Virus record (IMG/VR): IMGVR_UViG_3300033571_009650
Location: 1 to 42,086 of that record
DNA from: a virus
Direction: 5' to 3' (one strand)
DNA length: 42,086 nt
This document shows, piece after piece, positions 3,428-33,179 of the stretch (positions are counted from its first letter, which is position 1; each line of letters begins with the position of its first letter). A model generated the notes under the pieces. It made no database searches. It was not told where the DNA came from and worked only from the letters and a program-made list of their open reading frames with translations. A program made the position numbers and the translations under genes.

Positions 3428-3705
3428 GACGCCTCCCCACGGGCAGCGGCGATGACGTGCTGCATGTGCTCGTGCCTCTCGCAACGCCAGCAGGCACACG
3501 AGCGCTCATAGTCCTCGCATGGCTTTAGGTCCTGCTCGGCCACGCGTTGCGCTGCCTTCTCTCGCTCATCGGCGCGAGCCTTGGCGATCATTTCGCAGTA
3601 GCAACGTCTCCGCCACGATCTTTGGCCGTCTACATCCAAAATCTCGTCCCATTCGTCGGGGAACTTGTCGAGCGCGGGGAACGTGCAGAGTGGGTCGTGG
3701 TTCAC
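3424..3705 (-). CDS. HDPLC/CxC family protein, 93 aa
   Basis: GTG at 3705 with a GGGGAGG ribosome site supplied by the end of the upstream paralogue. It begins NHDPLC, then DEWDEILDVDGQRSWRRRCYC, closely matching the 3089-3427 paralogue, then ARADEREKAAQRV. A second Cys-rich stretch (CACWRCERH) precedes the shared ending AAARGEAS. It is probably a recent tandem duplicate of its downstream neighbour. Confidence 0.7.
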   Translation of the reverse strand: MNHDPLCTFPALDKFPDEWDEILDVDGQRSWRRRCYCEMIAKARADEREKAAQRVAEQDLKPCEDYERSCACWRCERHEHMQHVIAAARGEAS

Positions 3706-3947
3706 GACGCCTCCCCACGGGCAGCAGCGACGATGCCGTCAATCCAGTCGGCGGTTTCCATGCCGGTGAATAGTTTCGCGATGGCGTAATCAAAGGCGCG
3801 TTGTCCTGCCTTGTCCCGTTCATCTGTGCGGACCTTGGAGATCACGTCGCAGACGCACATTTCTGGCTCCCATGCGGAACCATAATTACGAGCCGGACAT
3901 AGTGGATCGTGCTGGTTCGTATCAGCCTGATACGTTTCCGCACTCAC
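3702..3947 (-). CDS. HDPLC/CxC family protein, 81 aa
   Basis: GTG at 3947 overlaps the upstream stop (GTGA). The HDPLC motif sits at residue 13 after a short polar extension, followed by CVCDVISKVRTDERDKAGQRA and the shared end AAARGEAS. The body between the knuckle and the tail differs from its paralogues, while the two ends are kept. Confidence 0.68.
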   Translation of the reverse strand: MSAETYQADTNQHDPLCPARNYGSAWEPEMCVCDVISKVRTDERDKAGQRAFDYAIAKLFTGMETADWIDGIVAAARGEAS

Positions 3948-4422: not shown

Positions 4423-4634
4423 ACAATTTCTGTGCGGCCTTCATGACCATGAATTGCTTCGACCGAAGCAATTCCACCTTCATGGATAGCCGTTGACGTT
4501 GCGTTAGGACCGCGCCACCGAAGAGCAACAATGCCGTCTGGAAACTCGACGCCGTCAGCAACAATCCCTGTTCCAGAAACTCCTGATACATCCTGAGAGC
4601 GACGAAGAACAAAGAGCCTTGATGTAGTAATCAT
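4410..4634 (-). CDS. Conserved small actinobacterial/phage protein, 74 aa
   Basis: ATG at 4634 overlaps the thyX stop as ATGA, so it is coupled to thyX. The sequence MITTSRLFVLRRSQDVSGVS, then GTGIVADGVEFPDGIVALRW, then a C-terminal AIHGHEGRTEIVW follows a pattern seen in many actinobacterial and phage proteins of unknown function (FVLxRxxDVxGVSGTGxVAxG, GHxGxTxxVW). The fold is probably a small beta barrel. No catalytic motif is visible. Confidence 0.65.
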   Translation of the reverse strand: MITTSRLFVLRRSQDVSGVSGTGIVADGVEFPDGIVALRWRGPNATSTAIHEGGIASVEAIHGHEGRTEIVWVN

Positions 4635-5341
4635 GGCGCTATCCGTCCATTTTTGCAAAACGAGTAATAGGTCAGAGGCATCACCGACGAAAAGATTTTC
4701 TCGTACTTCTCTGCAACCATTTCAATCTCGCGCTGCGGGTAAGACGGGAAGTAACTTTCGGCATCCTTGATACGCAGACTGAGAAAGTTCATCAACGCAC
4801 GAGCGTTCATCGTGACATACGCGCTGGAGTAGATGTTGAGCGGAAGGATGATTCTGGCAACCTCGCGGGCAATTCCGTTGTTAAGCATTGACTGGTAGTC
4901 GTTGTACGCCTGTCGGCAGACTTCCTTACTCCGCACCTGCACATGCAACTGCTGCTCGTAAGTGCCGGGAGTGAATTCGTACTTGCCAGCCTTGCCAATC
5001 TGCTGGAGATTGCGCTTGTTGTCGGGAATGTAGAAGACCGGCTGCAACTCGCGGTAGCGTCCTGACTCCTCGTTGTATGAGGCAATGCGATGACGCATGT
5101 GCTCGCGCCAGACAAAGATCGGTGCGCTGACAAAGAACGTAAAGACGGAGTGCTCGAACGGTGTGCCGTGGCGCTCGCGAATCAGGAAGTCAATGAGACC
5201 GCTGGCTTCTTCTGGAGTTGTCTTTGTTGTGTAAGAACGCTCTCCGATGGTTGAAACACGAGCAGCCCAGACAATATCCATGTCTGAGGCGGAGTGCTTG
5301 ACGAGTTCGACAGTCATGTCAGAACGGAATGTGACACTCAT
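4631..5341 (-). CDS. thyX: Flavin-dependent thymidylate synthase ThyX
   Basis: It converts dUMP to dTMP using methylene-tetrahydrofolate, FAD and NADPH. The 236-residue length fits the family. The diagnostic RHRx7S motif is at residues 83-93 (RHRIASYNEES), followed by GRYRELQ, where ThyX proteins bind dUMP and flavin. A second conserved block, REVARIILPLNIYS, lies near residue 160. It is coupled by ATGA overlaps to its upstream and downstream neighbours. With the ribonucleotide reductase in the same block, it would supply dTTP for phage DNA synthesis without the host ThyA route. Confidence 0.95.
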   Translation of the reverse strand: MSVTFRSDMTVELVKHSASDMDIVWAARVSTIGERSYTTKTTPEEASGLIDFLIRERHGTPFEHSVFTFFVSAPIFVWREHMRHRIASYNEESGRYRELQPVFYIPDNKRNLQQIGKAGKYEFTPGTYEQQLHVQVRSKEVCRQAYNDYQSMLNNGIAREVARIILPLNIYSSAYVTMNARALMNFLSLRIKDAESYFPSYPQREIEMVAEKYEKIFSSVMPLTYYSFCKNGRIAP

Positions 5342-6456: not shown

Positions 6457-7374
6457 TCAGAAATCGCCGTAGGCTACTTGGAAGGTTGGAAGTTGTAGAC
6501 GGTCGCGCCAGAGGGTGACCACCTGATCGCGGTCATCCAGAACAAAGCGCACACAGAAGCGGTTCTCGATGTGCTCCTGAAAAAGTTCATGCTTGACGAT
6601 CCAGTCTGGTCGGTGGTCTTTTGACGGACGCATGTATAGCGGGAGGTTCGGCCATACGTTTTCATTTAGCCAGTTCTGGGTGACTTCTCTACAATCCTCA
6701 CTTCGTCCTGACATGACGATTATCTTCCAGCCATAGGACGCGAGCATGGTGACAAGCCGAGAGACAGCCTGATTAGGAGTGTCAAGGTGAACTAGGTGGT
6801 AGTCATGGATATCCCTGTCAGGAGACTTGACAGCAAGAGTTCCGTCAATGTCAACAATGACTACTGGAGGAAGCCTGTGATCGTTGTGATAGGGCTGAAT
6901 CTCCGGTAGTCGGGGGAAACTCCACGGCTTCAGTTTTAGAGCACGCTGGTGTGCCTGCTCGATGACATGCTCAGGAACAGGATGCTCGCGGTTGGCATTG
7001 CGCTGAATGGCGGTCTCCAGCGGAACTTGGAGGAACTCGTCATTGACCGCGAAGTGGGCACCATGCTGGTGAGCAATGGCTTCCAGTTTGCGGAGCGCGG
7101 AGACGGAGAGATTGGTGTTGTCGAGGAAGATCACTTCAATGTCTGGGTTCTGAAGAAGGGAAACCAGCATCTTCTTCCGCATGGACTCCAGCATCGCTCC
7201 GTTTGCGTCGCTGCGAACTCCGAATGGATGACCGTAGAGCATGGTGCAGAGGTCATCGTTGTTGATGCGAGCGGCAGTACCGGGAGTTGCATTATTGACC
7301 TGCTCCCGCACCCAAGTGCTCTTGCCCGACGCGGGGATTCCACGAGGGGCAATCACCGCTTTCTGCTTAGTCAT
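6457..7374 (-). CDS. Polynucleotide kinase / 3'-phosphatase-like protein
   Basis: A 305-residue two-domain protein laid out like T4 PseT. The N-terminal kinase domain has a P-loop, RGIPASGKST (residues 11-20), and a later FLDNTNLS strand. The C-terminal HAD domain has VDIDGTLA (nucleophile D175, acid D177) and MSGRSEDCR, the usual motif after strand 2. Such enzymes phosphorylate 5'-OH ends and remove 3' or cyclic phosphates, preparing nicks for ligation; in T4 this repairs cleaved tRNA. The hammerhead ribozymes elsewhere in this window create exactly 5'-OH and 2',3'-cyclic phosphate ends; a link is speculative. No clear ribosome site precedes the ATG. Confidence 0.85.
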   Translation of the reverse strand: MTKQKAVIAPRGIPASGKSTWVREQVNNATPGTAARINNDDLCTMLYGHPFGVRSDANGAMLESMRKKMLVSLLQNPDIEVIFLDNTNLSVSALRKLEAIAHQHGAHFAVNDEFLQVPLETAIQRNANREHPVPEHVIEQAHQRALKLKPWSFPRLPEIQPYHNDHRLPPVVIVDIDGTLAVKSPDRDIHDYHLVHLDTPNQAVSRLVTMLASYGWKIIVMSGRSEDCREVTQNWLNENVWPNLPLYMRPSKDHRPDWIVKHELFQEHIENRFCVRFVLDDRDQVVTLWRDRLQLPTFQVAYGDF

Positions 7375-8521: not shown

Positions 8522-10564
8522 TTACTTCTGGATGGTCGCTGTCTCCACCTTTAGAATGCACGAATCTGTCGAGCAGAACGCTTCTCCAATTGCGTCGGCG
8601 GTCATGCCCTCGTAGACGGGTTCGAGAGGAACGGGGAGTAGGCGGTAGGTGTACTCGTTGTACTCGTCTTCCGTGATCTGCGTGTACGGCATTTGTGGGT
8701 AGGTGAAGTTGCCAGAGGGGAGGAACGAAACAGTCTTGAGTTGGCCGTCGTACATGTGCAGGACGGTGCCGACATGCTTGCTTTCGGTCTCAGGATCAAA
8801 CGAGACGGTGACTGAGACGGAGTTGTCGGACCAGTAGCGCTGCGCTGTGGCCGCCAGTGCCATCTTCTCGAAGATGCTTACGTCTCGTTCTGCACGTTCA
8901 GCGTTGCTCTTGATTGGGAAGAAGACAACGGATGTGTAGTCGGGATTCTCGCTCGCTGGTTCGACGGTGTAGTTTGCCATTCTAAAGAGCGGCAGCATTG
9001 CGTCATCGTTTGCGAAGCGGATTGCGCGAAGGAAGTATTTGCCGCCCGGTGTCCAGTGAACGCCGGGTGATTCGCCCGCAAGAATGCTGACGGTACCGGA
9101 GGGCTTTACGGTCGTGGTCTTGATCGAGGGACGGATGCAGAGCCACTCTGAGTAGACGTTGTCGTAGTACTGAACCGTCTGGTAGCCCTCGTCCATCCAC
9201 TCGCGCAGAGCCGGAAGACCCTTGGTGTCAGCGAAGTTTGCGATGCCGGACATGGAAAGTCCGATGCGGCGATTACGCTGCATGATTGCGTTGGTCTCTT
9301 CCCAATGCGTCGGAAGAAGTGTGACGGTCTTGCCGTAGAGGTACGCAACCTTCAGCGTCTTTTTGTAATCCTCAAGGCTGTCATGGTTGTTGAGATATGT
9401 TTCAGTTAGTGTACAACACTCGCCACTTTCAAGACTCTGCTCAGCACAAGGATTATATCCAGCAGCGCGATGGTCCTTGTTGTTGACAGGATCAGCAAGC
9501 CGTCCGTACTTGCGCGTCGTGTCCATCCAGATAACACCGGGTTCACCGTTGAGCGCAATGCCTTCAATGATGCGAGAAAGATCGGTGCCAACCGTGACTG
9601 CAACGGAGTTGTTGGACATGTACGCCCAGCCGGGTGCATCTGGTGTGTAGGAGTTACGCGCTGGGTAACGTTCGGCGTTCTTCAGATTGAGGAAGTCGTC
9701 GTCGTCAATGGAGCCCATCAGAAGTTCGGCGCTGCGACGGACGTTGCCGGAAACGGTGCAGACGCCAATCAGGTTGCCAAGATCGGCAATGTCTACGGAA
9801 GTGAGAGGAGTTCCCTGACGGAACTCGAACAACTTCCGAATCGCTTCATGGAGTCGGATCAGTGGATCTGGACCGGCAGCCGTTCCGCCGAAGGTACGGA
9901 TCGGCTCTCCTGCCGGACGAATCTGGGAGTAGTTGAAGATGTAGGTCGGTTGATTCGGCTTTAGGTAGGAGTCGATGAGCGCAGAGGTGGATTCGACCCA
10001 GCCCTCGCGGGTGTCGGGGATGACGTACTCGCGGCGCTCTTCAGAGGGAAGTTGAATAATGAAGTCCTTTTTGGCTCCCTCTGTATCGAAGCCGACTCCG
10101 ACGCCGAGCATCGAGGCTTCCTGTAGGAAAGCGAAGGGCTTTGACGGAGAGTTCTTGGTCATCTCCTTGGTCGAGATGAAAGCGCAGTTCTGAAGTGCGG
10201 CAGAGTTTCGCTGATCCATGACAAGGGGAGTTCCCATCACCCAGAGTCCGCGACCGGGTGGAGTCCACTTCAGAAGGAAGAGACGGTCAAACGCATCCTG
10301 TGCGGTGGTCTGTGCCTTTGCATTATTCCACGGCAGACGGTTCGCCTTGCAGTGATCCTTCTGGATGGAGAACATGCCTTCAATGACTCGTCGGCAGACA
10401 TCAACCCAAGTTTCCTTGCCAGAGCCGTCAGCCTTGAGGCGACTATAAGTGCGGACAAAGGTGATCTCGCCAATCGAATTTCCGCCTGCATCGCGGTAGC
10501 CAAAAGGTGGAGTACGGGTCTTGTAGGAGTCTACGAAGTCGTCTGTCAGACGGAATGAAAACAT
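8522..10564 (-). CDS. nrdJ: Adenosylcobalamin-dependent (class II) ribonucleoside-triphosphate reductase
   Basis: 680 residues, the monomeric RTPR type known from Lactobacillus leichmannii. The thiyl-radical cysteine is C373 in NPCAEQ with E375 behind it. The redox pair is C127 (ALQNCAF) and C384 (GECCTL), and the C-terminal shuttle pair is C664/C669 in a CxxxxC. It reduces NTPs to dNTPs using B12, so the host must supply cobalamin. ATG at 10564 is preceded by AAAGGGATAAC. It is the first large gene of its transcript. No cobalamin riboswitch fits in the 65 bases upstream. Confidence 0.95.
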   Translation of the reverse strand: MFSFRLTDDFVDSYKTRTPPFGYRDAGGNSIGEITFVRTYSRLKADGSGKETWVDVCRRVIEGMFSIQKDHCKANRLPWNNAKAQTTAQDAFDRLFLLKWTPPGRGLWVMGTPLVMDQRNSAALQNCAFISTKEMTKNSPSKPFAFLQEASMLGVGVGFDTEGAKKDFIIQLPSEERREYVIPDTREGWVESTSALIDSYLKPNQPTYIFNYSQIRPAGEPIRTFGGTAAGPDPLIRLHEAIRKLFEFRQGTPLTSVDIADLGNLIGVCTVSGNVRRSAELLMGSIDDDDFLNLKNAERYPARNSYTPDAPGWAYMSNNSVAVTVGTDLSRIIEGIALNGEPGVIWMDTTRKYGRLADPVNNKDHRAAGYNPCAEQSLESGECCTLTETYLNNHDSLEDYKKTLKVAYLYGKTVTLLPTHWEETNAIMQRNRRIGLSMSGIANFADTKGLPALREWMDEGYQTVQYYDNVYSEWLCIRPSIKTTTVKPSGTVSILAGESPGVHWTPGGKYFLRAIRFANDDAMLPLFRMANYTVEPASENPDYTSVVFFPIKSNAERAERDVSIFEKMALAATAQRYWSDNSVSVTVSFDPETESKHVGTVLHMYDGQLKTVSFLPSGNFTYPQMPYTQITEDEYNEYTYRLLPVPLEPVYEGMTADAIGEAFCSTDSCILKVETATIQK

Positions 10565-24428: not shown

Positions 24429-24779
24429 ATGCGAGTAGAGGCGTACTACAACCTGCACCTGAAGTGCCTCTCGTTCCGAGAGACGCGCAAGGGTGCGCGA
24501 GTGCAGCACACTGAGACCCTGCACCTGAAGAACGTCAAGTTCGCGGTGCAGCCAGCAGGACGCGCCAAGGTGCTGCGCGAGCAAGCCAAGAACGTCCATG
24601 CGTTCGTGCGCGGAGAGGTCGTGTCTGTCGGGCACGGCATCCCTTCGGGCGACAAGTGGGTCAAGGTGACCTACAACCCCTACAAGTACGACTCGTTCGT
24701 GGTCGCGGAGACTGGCGAGCCGATCCACGAGGCACGCGCCGCCGTGATTGAGGACCGGCGAATCTACGTTTGGATTTGA
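24429..24779 (+). CDS. Basic hypothetical protein, 116 aa
   Basis: ATG at 24429 behind CTAGGGAGGTAGCC. RVEAYYNLHLKCLSFRETRK begins a beta-rich fold; FAVQPAGRAKVLREQAKNVH is a basic helix; GEVVSVGHGIPSGDKWVKVT follows. The net positive charge would suit nucleic-acid binding. Its TGA lies in the next TTGACA. Confidence 0.62.
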   Translation: MRVEAYYNLHLKCLSFRETRKGARVQHTETLHLKNVKFAVQPAGRAKVLREQAKNVHAFVRGEVVSVGHGIPSGDKWVKVTYNPYKYDSFVVAETGEPIHEARAAVIEDRRIYVWI

Positions 24780-24805
24780 CAAGTGGCAGGTCAGTGCTCT
24801 ACAAT
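24776..24805 (+). promoter_or_regulatory. Promoter for the ribozyme-separated operon
   Basis: TTGACA (24776-24781), 18-nt spacer with TGGCAGG, TACAAT (24800-24805). It is the only promoter seen before the three genes 24831, 25066 and 25406. Confidence 0.85.
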
Positions 24806-24830
24806 GGAAGCACCAACTAGGGAGGTAAGC

Positions 24831-24998
24831 ATGATGGCAATGAAGATGACGACCCCGGTCTTTGAGGACCGGCGTGCAGGTGGGCGGTTGCAGCCCTTCG
24901 TCTACTACCAGACTGAGGACGGCGTCGCTTGGTCGCCTGATGGCGAGGGGTTCTTCTGGTACGACACGATGACGGAGGCTCTGGCTCAGCACGGCTGA
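24831..24998 (+). CDS. Small hypothetical protein, 55 aa
   Basis: ATG at 24831 (ATGATG; first used) behind CTAGGGAGGTAAGC. MMAMKMTTPVFEDRRAGGRL, then FVYYQTEDGVAWSPDGEGF and a short final helix. Its stop lies two bases before the first hammerhead ribozyme, so the ribozyme forms its 3' end. Confidence 0.62.
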   Translation: MMAMKMTTPVFEDRRAGGRLQPFVYYQTEDGVAWSPDGEGFFWYDTMTEALAQHG

Positions 24999-25000
24999 CA

Positions 25001-25050
25001 GGTCGAAACGCCGTGAGGCGTCGGTGCGTAAGGCGCACCCTGATGAGACC
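25001..25050 (+). ncRNA. Type II hammerhead ribozyme 1
   Basis: All core elements are present. GGTC (25001-25004) pairs with GACC (25047-25050) as open stem II. GAAA is 25005-25008. Stem III is CGCC/GGCG (25009-25012, 25017-25020) with a GTGA tetraloop. The cleavage triplet GTC ends at 25022. Stem I is GGTGCG/CGCACC (25023-25028, 25034-25039) with loop TAAGG. CTGATGA is 25040-25046. Self-cleavage would cut after C25022, leaving a 2',3'-cyclic phosphate on the upstream mRNA and a 5'-OH hairpin leader on gene 25066. Confidence 0.93.
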
Positions 25051-25065
25051 ACTAGGGAGGCAAGC

Positions 25066-25338
25066 ATGGAACACACCAAGGGCAGGATGCCCACAATCAC
25101 GTTCTCTGATGACGCGGACTACGACACGCTCAACGCCGTCCTCTTTACTCCGAGAGGCGAGAATGGAGATTCGTGGGTAGCGCGGATCGTCACTAAGGAC
25201 GGCCTGCACTATGACCTGATGCTCAACTCCAAGGCACCCGCAGACTTCATCGGCGGGAGCGCGTGGCAGAGCGGAGAGTGGCGCGGGAACCCCGTCTGGA
25301 TTCATCTGGACGACGTTGCCGAGATCATCATTCACTGA
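25066..25338 (+). CDS. Small hypothetical protein, 90 aa
   Basis: ATG at 25066 behind CTAGGGAGGCAAGC, 16 bases past ribozyme 1. EHTKGRMPTITFSDDADYDT, then NGDSWVARIVTKDGLHYDLM, then WRGNPVWIHLDDVAEIII suggest a small beta-rich domain. There is no own promoter; expression depends on the upstream one. The second ribozyme begins two bases after its stop. Confidence 0.65.
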   Translation: MEHTKGRMPTITFSDDADYDTLNAVLFTPRGENGDSWVARIVTKDGLHYDLMLNSKAPADFIGGSAWQSGEWRGNPVWIHLDDVAEIIIH

Positions 25339-25340
25339 CA

Positions 25341-25390
25341 GGTCGAAACGCCGAGAGGCGTCCACGGGTACGGCCCGTGCTGATGAGACC
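25341..25390 (+). ncRNA. Type II hammerhead ribozyme 2
   Basis: Same architecture as ribozyme 1. GGTC (25341-25344) pairs with GACC (25387-25390). GAAA is 25345-25348. CGCC/GGCG closes on a GAGA tetraloop. GTC ends at 25362. Stem I is CACGGG/CCCGTG (25363-25368, 25374-25379) with loop TACGG. CTGATGA is 25380-25386. Stem I differs from copy 1 at most positions yet pairs perfectly, which is strong compensatory evidence. Predicted cleavage is after C25362. Confidence 0.93.
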
Positions 25391-25405
25391 AACTAGGGAG
25401 GAAGC

Positions 25406-25705
25406 ATGACAAAACTGATTGTTCACCCCGGCACGGGGACGATCATCGACGCAAATGACGGCACGCTCATCGTGGACGTGGTAGATGCATCGGTGTGGGA
25501 GGACGACGAGGACGTAGTCTCGTACGCGGAGGCACACGGCTCGCCCGTCGTGCCTGATGAGCAGTACGCGGTCGCGGTCGGTGAGATGTTCGACGGGATC
25601 AACTTCCACGGCCCGTTCGGAAGTTTCGATGACGCGGAAGCGTGGGCCGGACACAATGCCGGTGGCAACTGGTGGGTTGTACGGCTAGAGTCTCCCACGG
25701 CTTGA
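25406..25705 (+). CDS. Acidic hypothetical protein, 99 aa
   Basis: ATG at 25406 behind CTAGGGAGGAAGC. TKLIVHPGTGTIIDANDGTL, then IVDVVDASVWEDDEDVV, then EQYAVAVGEMFDGINFHG and a C-terminal AEAWAGHNAGGNWWVVRL. Third gene of the ribozyme operon. Its TGA is inside the next TTGACA. Not recognised. Confidence 0.62.
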   Translation: MTKLIVHPGTGTIIDANDGTLIVDVVDASVWEDDEDVVSYAEAHGSPVVPDEQYAVAVGEMFDGINFHGPFGSFDDAEAWAGHNAGGNWWVVRLESPTA

Positions 25706-25730
25706 CACCTGTCTCCCTAGCGGGTACAAT
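25702..25730 (+). promoter_or_regulatory. Promoter for gene 25760
   Basis: TTGACA (25702-25707), 17-nt spacer, TACAAT (25725-25730). The spacer contains CTCCCTAG, the complement of the leader element. Confidence 0.83.
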
Positions 25731-25759: not shown

Positions 25760-25912
25760 ATGAGCAAGAAGAAGCCGAAGGCTTCGGACCTGTTCGTGAT
25801 CGGACGTGCGGGATACGTTCTGAACCAGAAGGTGCAGAAGTTCGCACACAAGAACACGAAGCGGACCAAGACCCGCGCAACGCAGAAGGCCCGCGCTCTC
25901 ACCGACTGGTGA
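25760..25912 (+). CDS. Small very basic protein, 50 aa
   Basis: ATG at 25760 behind CTAGGGAGGCCAA. SKKKPKASDLFVIGRAGYVL, then QKVQKFAHKNTKRTKTRATQ: about a third Lys/Arg, with little acid. It could bind DNA, RNA or the ribosome. The stop codon sits inside the stem of the following terminator, so coding and termination signals overlap. Confidence 0.65.
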   Translation: MSKKKPKASDLFVIGRAGYVLNQKVQKFAHKNTKRTKTRATQKARALTDW

Positions 25913-25926
25913 GGCGCGGGTTTTTT
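25890..25926 (+). terminator. Terminator overlapping a stop codon
   Basis: CCCGCGC plus CTCACC pairs with GGTGAG plus GCGCGGG with one bulged T, then T6. It includes the TGA of gene 25760. Confidence 0.88.
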
Positions 25927-32973: not shown

Positions 32974-33041
32974 GCGCCGGGTGCTGGGCACGGATTGGTC
33001 TCCAAAGCCGATCCCGCTGGGTTCGATTCCTAGACGGCGTG
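32974..33041 (+). tRNA. tRNA-Trp(CCA)-like domain with reduced D-arm
   Basis: The acceptor GCGCCG pairs with CGGCGT at 33035-33040. The anticodon loop CTCCAAA has anticodon CCA on a stem TTGGT/GCCGA, extendable to 7 bp. The variable loop is TCCCG. The T-arm CTGGG-TTCGATT-CCTAG is canonical. The D-arm is odd: GTGC-TGG-GCAC, with a three-base loop and no GG pair to dock with the T-loop. No CCA is encoded. It could be a minimal tRNA, a tRNA mimic or a decaying gene. Confidence 0.65.
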
Positions 33042-33179
33042 CGGGCATCACTTCCCTGCAAACAGAGGTGATGCGCTGGCGGAGGGTTGCAGACCTCGCG
33101 GCCAGCCGGGACGACGACGAAGGTCGGGGATGCGGCGGCATCATGGCTCCCTTTGGGGAGAGACCGCCACCACGTCAGG

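Follow-up and report, generated by a model that had tools for sequence, protein, structure and literature searches.

The window, the whole 42,086-nt stretch analysed here (IMG/VR record IMGVR_UViG_3300033571_009650), is a metagenomic contig of viral origin. A unit of three small genes lies on its plus strand behind a single predicted promoter, with a type II hammerhead at each of the two internal junctions. The features of this unit and of the gene that follows it are listed below, all on the plus strand; Shine-Dalgarno cassettes are copies of CTAGGGAGG.

24776..24805, plus strand: predicted sigma-70-type promoter of the three-gene unit, TTGACA-N18-TACAAT, 11/12 consensus
24817..24825, plus strand: Shine-Dalgarno cassette of gene 1, exact match
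24831..24998, plus strand: gene 1, ORF of 55 aa, TGA stop at 24996-24998
25001..25050, plus strand: hammerhead ribozyme 1 (type II), whole element, from the core read in the sequence, the covariance model and the minimum-energy fold
25001-25004/25047-25050: ribozyme 1, stem II
25005-25007: ribozyme 1, GAA
25008-25012/25017-25021: ribozyme 1, stem III
25022: ribozyme 1, C17, predicted cut between 25022 and 25023
25023-25028/25034-25039: ribozyme 1, stem I
25040-25046: ribozyme 1, CUGAUGA
25052..25060, plus strand: Shine-Dalgarno cassette of gene 2, 1 nt past ribozyme 1
25066..25338, plus strand: gene 2, ORF of 90 aa, TGA stop at 25336-25338
25341..25390, plus strand: hammerhead ribozyme 2 (type II), layout as ribozyme 1, predicted cut between 25362 and 25363
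25393..25401, plus strand: Shine-Dalgarno cassette of gene 3, 2 nt past ribozyme 2
25406..25705, plus strand: gene 3, ORF of 99 aa
25702..25730, plus strand: next promoter, TTGACA-N17-TACAAT, 11/12 consensus, overlapping the end of gene 3
25760..25912, plus strand: gene 4, 50 aa, read directly
about 25889-25926, plus strand: terminator-like hairpin at the 3′ end of gene 4, CCCGCGC...GCGCGGG followed by TTTTTT, read directly and unlisted by a simple terminator scan

The cassette CTAGGGAGG has 31 matches within one mismatch in the window, against 7 expected, and the combination of promoter and cassette recurs ahead of single genes at 19 sites between 21585 and 36895 (plus strand). Among the other plus-strand genes with this cassette, 13 of 17 carry a TTGACA-type promoter scoring at least 9/12, a level that 10% of random segments reach, whereas the best promoter score at both ribozyme junctions is 7/12, the background mode. 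The initial annotation was thus right that no promoter separates the three genes, unlike their neighbours. Judged by these scores, the ribozymes occupy the position that a promoter usually takes in this genome.

Family scans of genes 1-3 were empty or insignificant and gave no informative match; gene 3 has no Pfam or PHROG family, and its C-terminal part shares about 60% identity with ORFs of two viral contigs in which no ribozyme was detected. For genes 2 and 3 together, relatives amounted to three weak or partial loci, with no ribozyme detected there. Conservation of junctions was therefore followed at orthologous junctions of Streptomyces phages. An actinobacterial host is likely, since the gene just upstream of the unit (24429-24779) is Phage_L5_gp82-like and further relatives belong to phages of actinobacteria. 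A near-identity search of the phage collection returned no match to the window. Elsewhere the window carries a tRNA-Trp gene with anticodon CCA (32974-33042, plus strand), a ThyX thymidylate synthase (4631-5341, minus strand) and a B12-dependent ribonucleotide reductase (8522-10564, minus strand).

Structure of the two hammerheads

Read from 5′ to 3′, both elements open with GGTC, which is the 3′ strand of stem II, and GAA. Stem III, capped by a GNRA tetraloop, and the cleavage base C come next, then stem I and CTGATGA, and GACC closes the element as the 5′ strand of stem II; this is the order of a type II hammerhead. The arms of stem III are ACGCC and GGCGT in both, enclosing GTGA in ribozyme 1 and GAGA in ribozyme 2. 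Stem I has 6 bp and a 5-nt loop in each copy, with arms GGTGCG and CGCACC around TAAGG in ribozyme 1, and CACGGG and CCCGTG around TACGG in ribozyme 2. Apart from stem I and its loop, a single base distinguishes the copies, within the GNRA tetraloop. In stem I itself four of the six pairs are changed, each on both sides, so that pairing is complete in both copies, as had been claimed. The core that defines type II membership (CUGANGA ... GAA, A15.1-U16.1, H17 and G10.1-C11.1) is exact in both copies.

The RNAfold minimum-energy structure is exactly the hammerhead fold for both copies, whether flanks are included or not. Both this fold and the covariation described below leave stem II open and close stems I and III. 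A search for the half-motif with up to three mismatches found only these two sites in the window (0.01 expected), and the full core pattern occurs twice in the window and never in 100 shuffles. Together, the complete core, the fold and the covariation strongly support the assignment of both elements as complete type II hammerheads, in agreement with the initial annotation, whose core letters and three stems were confirmed at 25001-25050 and 25341-25390.

The loop I-3′ tail pseudoknot, present in the majority but not all of type II hammerheads and accelerating those studied (PMC3088659), has no counterpart here: the longest Watson-Crick run between loop I and the tail is 2 in both window copies. 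Among 168 compact copies, runs of at least 4 were found in 20, against 11 with shuffled tails, which is no clear excess.

The Rfam search that had been suggested as a check did not recover the pair. No match was obtained in the window at the gathering cut-off; below the cut-off, RF02276 (Hammerhead_II) reported copy 2 at 25.1 bits (E 0.014; gathering cut-off 37 bits) and left copy 1 unreported. In a whole-window E-value search neither ribozyme appeared, and no hammerhead was found at E up to 1; the weak matches to unrelated Rfam families in that search were every one under the cut-off of its family. A gathering cut-off is a curator's threshold and not a biochemical criterion. Ten loci rich in copies gave just two Rfam hits, whereas the longer copies of Streptomyces phages R4 and Spernnie pass, and for this reason the miss seems to lie with the library model, which is geared to longer type II elements. 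A covariance model (R1) was built from an 83-row alignment of relatives. It scores ribozymes 1 and 2 at 73.1 and 71.8 bits, partly by construction since both are training rows; the next-best match in the window scores 11.6 bits.

Relatives and covariation

Stem I was left entirely free in the wide pattern with which relatives were collected; the fixed parts were core positions, a portion of the tetraloop and two pairs of stem III. A narrower pattern used before it specified stem III and one of the two stem II strands, and it too placed no demand on stem I. The wide pattern gave at least 120 loci in IMG/VR. Among the matches listed, all stem I pairs form in 81 of 83 unique matches of the form with a 5-bp stem III and in 49 of 49 of the form with a 6-bp stem III, that is in 130 of 132 core-pattern matches, with 60 and 35 distinct stem I arms, respectively. 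In the 83-row alignment of distinct relatives, 99.4% of the base-pair cells are paired (71.9% when shuffled), the covariation score is 0.720 (0.161) and both-side changes number 343 (94). Sliding one strand by a single base lowers pairing to about 30%. Pairing of stem I with dozens of different sequences is near-conclusive evidence for a selected RNA fold. Many contigs carry several copies, up to seven in one stretch. In one such locus (L175, 7361-9683, minus strand) seven hammerheads lie within 2.3 kb, most of them between single small genes.

Run over 257 Gb of bacterial and archaeal genomes, the same pattern had 8 matches: 3 were paired hammerheads and 5 unpaired chance matches. The compact form is therefore strongly viral, as judged by hit counts unadjusted for the exact sizes of the viral and cellular collections. 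These data bear on whether the elements could be chance resemblances, or hairpins that act as an mRNA stabiliser, an attenuator or a protein site and merely look like a hammerhead. The hairpins of stems I and III could indeed stabilise RNA without any cutting. However, the shuffle expectation is about zero, and nearly all viral matches are paired whereas five of the eight cellular ones are not. The complete core and the covariation largely refute such a reading, to which we attach hardly any credence.

Arrays were also found in cultured Streptomyces phages, with R1 model matches numbering 8 in Yara, 6-8 in Wentworth, 6-7 in phiRKBJ001, 8 in Spernnie and 6 in R4 (the lower figures omit weak hits far from the array); Rfam reports 9 hammerheads in the R4 stretch. 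Each phage thus has an array of 6-9 hammerheads, most of them at or against annotated gene junctions, and the stretches of their records that were read carry no ribozyme annotation. As in the window, the type II hammerheads sit between small genes that share a strand, although in R4 and Spernnie stem I is longer. No model match was found in DSL-LC01, the nearest phage by its vWA-like protein (48% identity), or in Mycobacterium phage Indlovu, and Microbacterium phage Leaf gave only a partial, insignificant one.

Two orthologous junctions of these phages have retained the ribozyme, with compensating changes in its stems. Ahead of the protein beginning MYDRKHR, the stem III arms of Wentworth and phiRKBJ001 are very different and each is fully paired; ahead of an acetyltransferase gene, stem I of R4 and Spernnie differs by a compensated change. 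The suggested search for ribozymes at the same gene junctions in related phages thus has a positive answer for orthologous junctions of Streptomyces phages, but not for the very genes of the window.

Conserved DNA at the junctions might instead mark recombination boundaries, or selfish junction sequences, that let phages swap small genes, catalysis being unimportant. The neighbouring genes are indeed small ORFans, and the two window copies are almost the same over the first 27 nt counted from the stop codon. Boundaries at the DNA level nevertheless need sequence identity, whereas here the stems change and the pairing stays. Moreover, all catalytic bases are kept, although the collecting pattern itself fixed most of the core bases. 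We regard this explanation as improbable.

In R4, the annotated mini-genes gp60.1, gp67.1 and gp75.1 (about 27-33 aa; 1263-1346, 3626-3718 and 6574-6675 of locus L184) fall on Hammerhead_II hits and probably do not encode proteins. A further R4 hammerhead (L184, 5248-5313) overlaps the annotated 5′ end of gp72, an OCR-like antirestriction gene whose annotated start may be wrong; this overlap recalls the association with ardA reported in PMC3088659.

Placement at gene junctions and probable transcript processing

Each window ribozyme begins 2 nt (CA) past a TGA stop (24996-24998 and 25336-25338) and ends 1 or 2 nt ahead of CTAGGGAGG (25052-25060 and 25393-25401), just as initially annotated. 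The generality of this placement was assessed on 176 non-redundant ribozymes with flanks among the matches listed, mostly from metagenomic phages. An ORF stop lies within -6 to +4 nt of stem II in 148 of them (29 in the antisense control, 15 at random positions), and 155 lie between an upstream stop and a downstream start (22 and 26 in the controls). The offset between stop and stem II is sharply peaked, at -2 in 54 of the 176, as in the window, and at +1 in 33, an offset at which the first base of stem II is shared with the stop codon. A Shine-Dalgarno-like word follows within 30 nt in 141 of the 176, a raw count without control, and the start codon is mostly 15-31 nt past the ribozyme.

The base preceding stem II is A in 168 of 180 cases, and in 107 of the 113 cases where it falls outside the stop codon; locally, A makes up 27% of the bases. 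Loop I usually has U first and G last, mostly as UNNNG. In four ribozymes whose loop I starts and ends in A, both bases flanking stem II are T. This small-number observation hints that loop I may touch the flank of stem II in a tertiary contact that stands in for the pseudoknot. Hammerheads with this exchange, A at both ends of loop I and T instead of A at the stem II flanks, lie in loci L073 and L142 and are possibly a swapped tertiary module.

Fold, core, covariation, strand, position and recurrence are directly supported. Given these, we consider it likely that the hammerheads divide the phage transcript into gene-length mRNAs by co-transcriptional self-cleavage. Each ribozyme would fold as the transcript emerges and cut itself once, after 25022 and after 25362. 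The upstream piece would end in the GNRA-capped stem III hairpin with a 2′,3′-cyclic phosphate, and the downstream piece would start at a 5′-OH, with the stem I hairpin leading and the Shine-Dalgarno site behind it. A ribozyme in the place of a promoter would thereby give the same outcome of one gene per mRNA that most CTAGGGAGG genes obtain from promoters of their own. The first RNA would start at the promoter (24776-24805) and the third would have no stem III at its 3′ end; the earlier proposal that every mRNA receives both a 5′ hairpin leader and a 3′ stem therefore fits only the RNA of the middle gene. Activity in the cell, the chemistry of the ends and effects on mRNA decay and translation are inferred from established hammerhead chemistry and from published tandem examples (PMC3088659). 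Against this reading stand the lack, in the window copies, of the pseudoknot that speeds type II ribozymes, the occurrence of relatives of the C-terminal part of gene 3 with no ribozyme detected nearby, and the three small genes themselves, which are without known function and give no hint why they should be separated.

The same placement raises the possibility, which we hold tentatively, that the ribozyme is real but gated by translation. Ribosomes at the adjoining stop and start could keep it unfolded, masking the core, and cutting would then occur only on ribosome-free RNA, so that the element would serve as a sensor or timing switch and processing would not be constant. Stem II starts within the stop or 2 nt past it, its other strand adjoins the Shine-Dalgarno site, and both the sharply peaked offset and the short distance to the start codon would suit such coupling. 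Compact phage genomes would, however, place any junction element tightly, which could explain the same spacing, and fast co-transcriptional cutting could come ahead of the ribosomes. A more specific version, rather doubtful as yet, is that these ribozymes form a stop-fused compact phage subclass used as a standard junction part. The conserved A at position -1, sometimes supplied by the stop codon (UAG overlapping stem II), would contact loop I, so that terminating ribosomes would switch cutting off and translation would decide whether neighbouring genes share one mRNA.

In another scheme, a pair of ribozymes would free gene-length RNAs, with 5′-OH and 2′,3′-cyclic phosphate ends, that an RNA ligase would join into circular mRNAs. 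The end chemistry fits RtcB, gene 2 has a ribozyme on both sides, and the window encodes an end-healing enzyme of a type that heals hammerhead-made ends:

6457-7374, minus strand: Pnkp-type polynucleotide kinase/3′-phosphatase (PF25109, 4e-45; phrog_505, 1e-78)

Neither RtcB nor a Pnkp phosphatase domain was found, however, in 14 other phage records, 13 of them ribozyme-bearing, and circular or spliced products were sought in PMC3088659 and none was found. A host RtcB is possible, but we consider circularisation very improbable.

The idea that ribozymes divide a phage transcript into single-gene messages has a precedent: Perreault et al. (2011; PMC3088659) described clustered hammerheads that flank single genes in prophages and proposed transcript processing; tandem hammerheads of this kind cut in vitro, and those of Agrobacterium also in E. 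coli. The window elements share with the type II hammerheads of RF02276 and PMC3088659 the element order, all core bases, the GUC triplet, the open stem II and the hairpins on stems I and III. They differ in being shorter, with a 6-bp stem I and a 5-nt loop that is mostly UNNNG, in having no pseudoknot and in falling under the Rfam cut-off. The prophage clusters (Agrobacterium ardA, Azorhizobium and Clostridium scindens) likewise separate genes of a phage transcript by several hammerheads, for which a like role was proposed. Taking at least two hammerheads on one strand at phage gene junctions as a cluster, there are two in the window and 2-9 in its relatives; the kind found here is of compact type II throughout, in most cases adjusted closely to the stop codon, and far commoner in viral contigs than in cellular genomes. 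The HDV-like theta ribozymes of gut phages (PMC10879173) are also small, self-cleaving, almost wholly confined to phages and placed to process phage RNA, but they have a different fold and trim tRNA 3′ ends instead of acting at mRNA junctions. A later paper on the junction-hammerhead arrangement was not found in the open-access literature, most subscription papers being beyond reach. New here are the compact, pseudoknot-less, phage-enriched form, its setting in a cassette of stop codon, ribozyme and Shine-Dalgarno site, and its occurrence in tractable cultured phages.

What bacterial and phage hammerheads do for their carriers has been a standing question since 2011, and the Rfam cut-off hides the compact form. 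Because this form is common in phages, rare in cellular genomes and located at stop codons far beyond chance, a role in mRNA processing is favoured. Cultured phages with 6-9 ribozymes each, above all R4 on Streptomyces coelicolor, would make the idea easy to examine experimentally.
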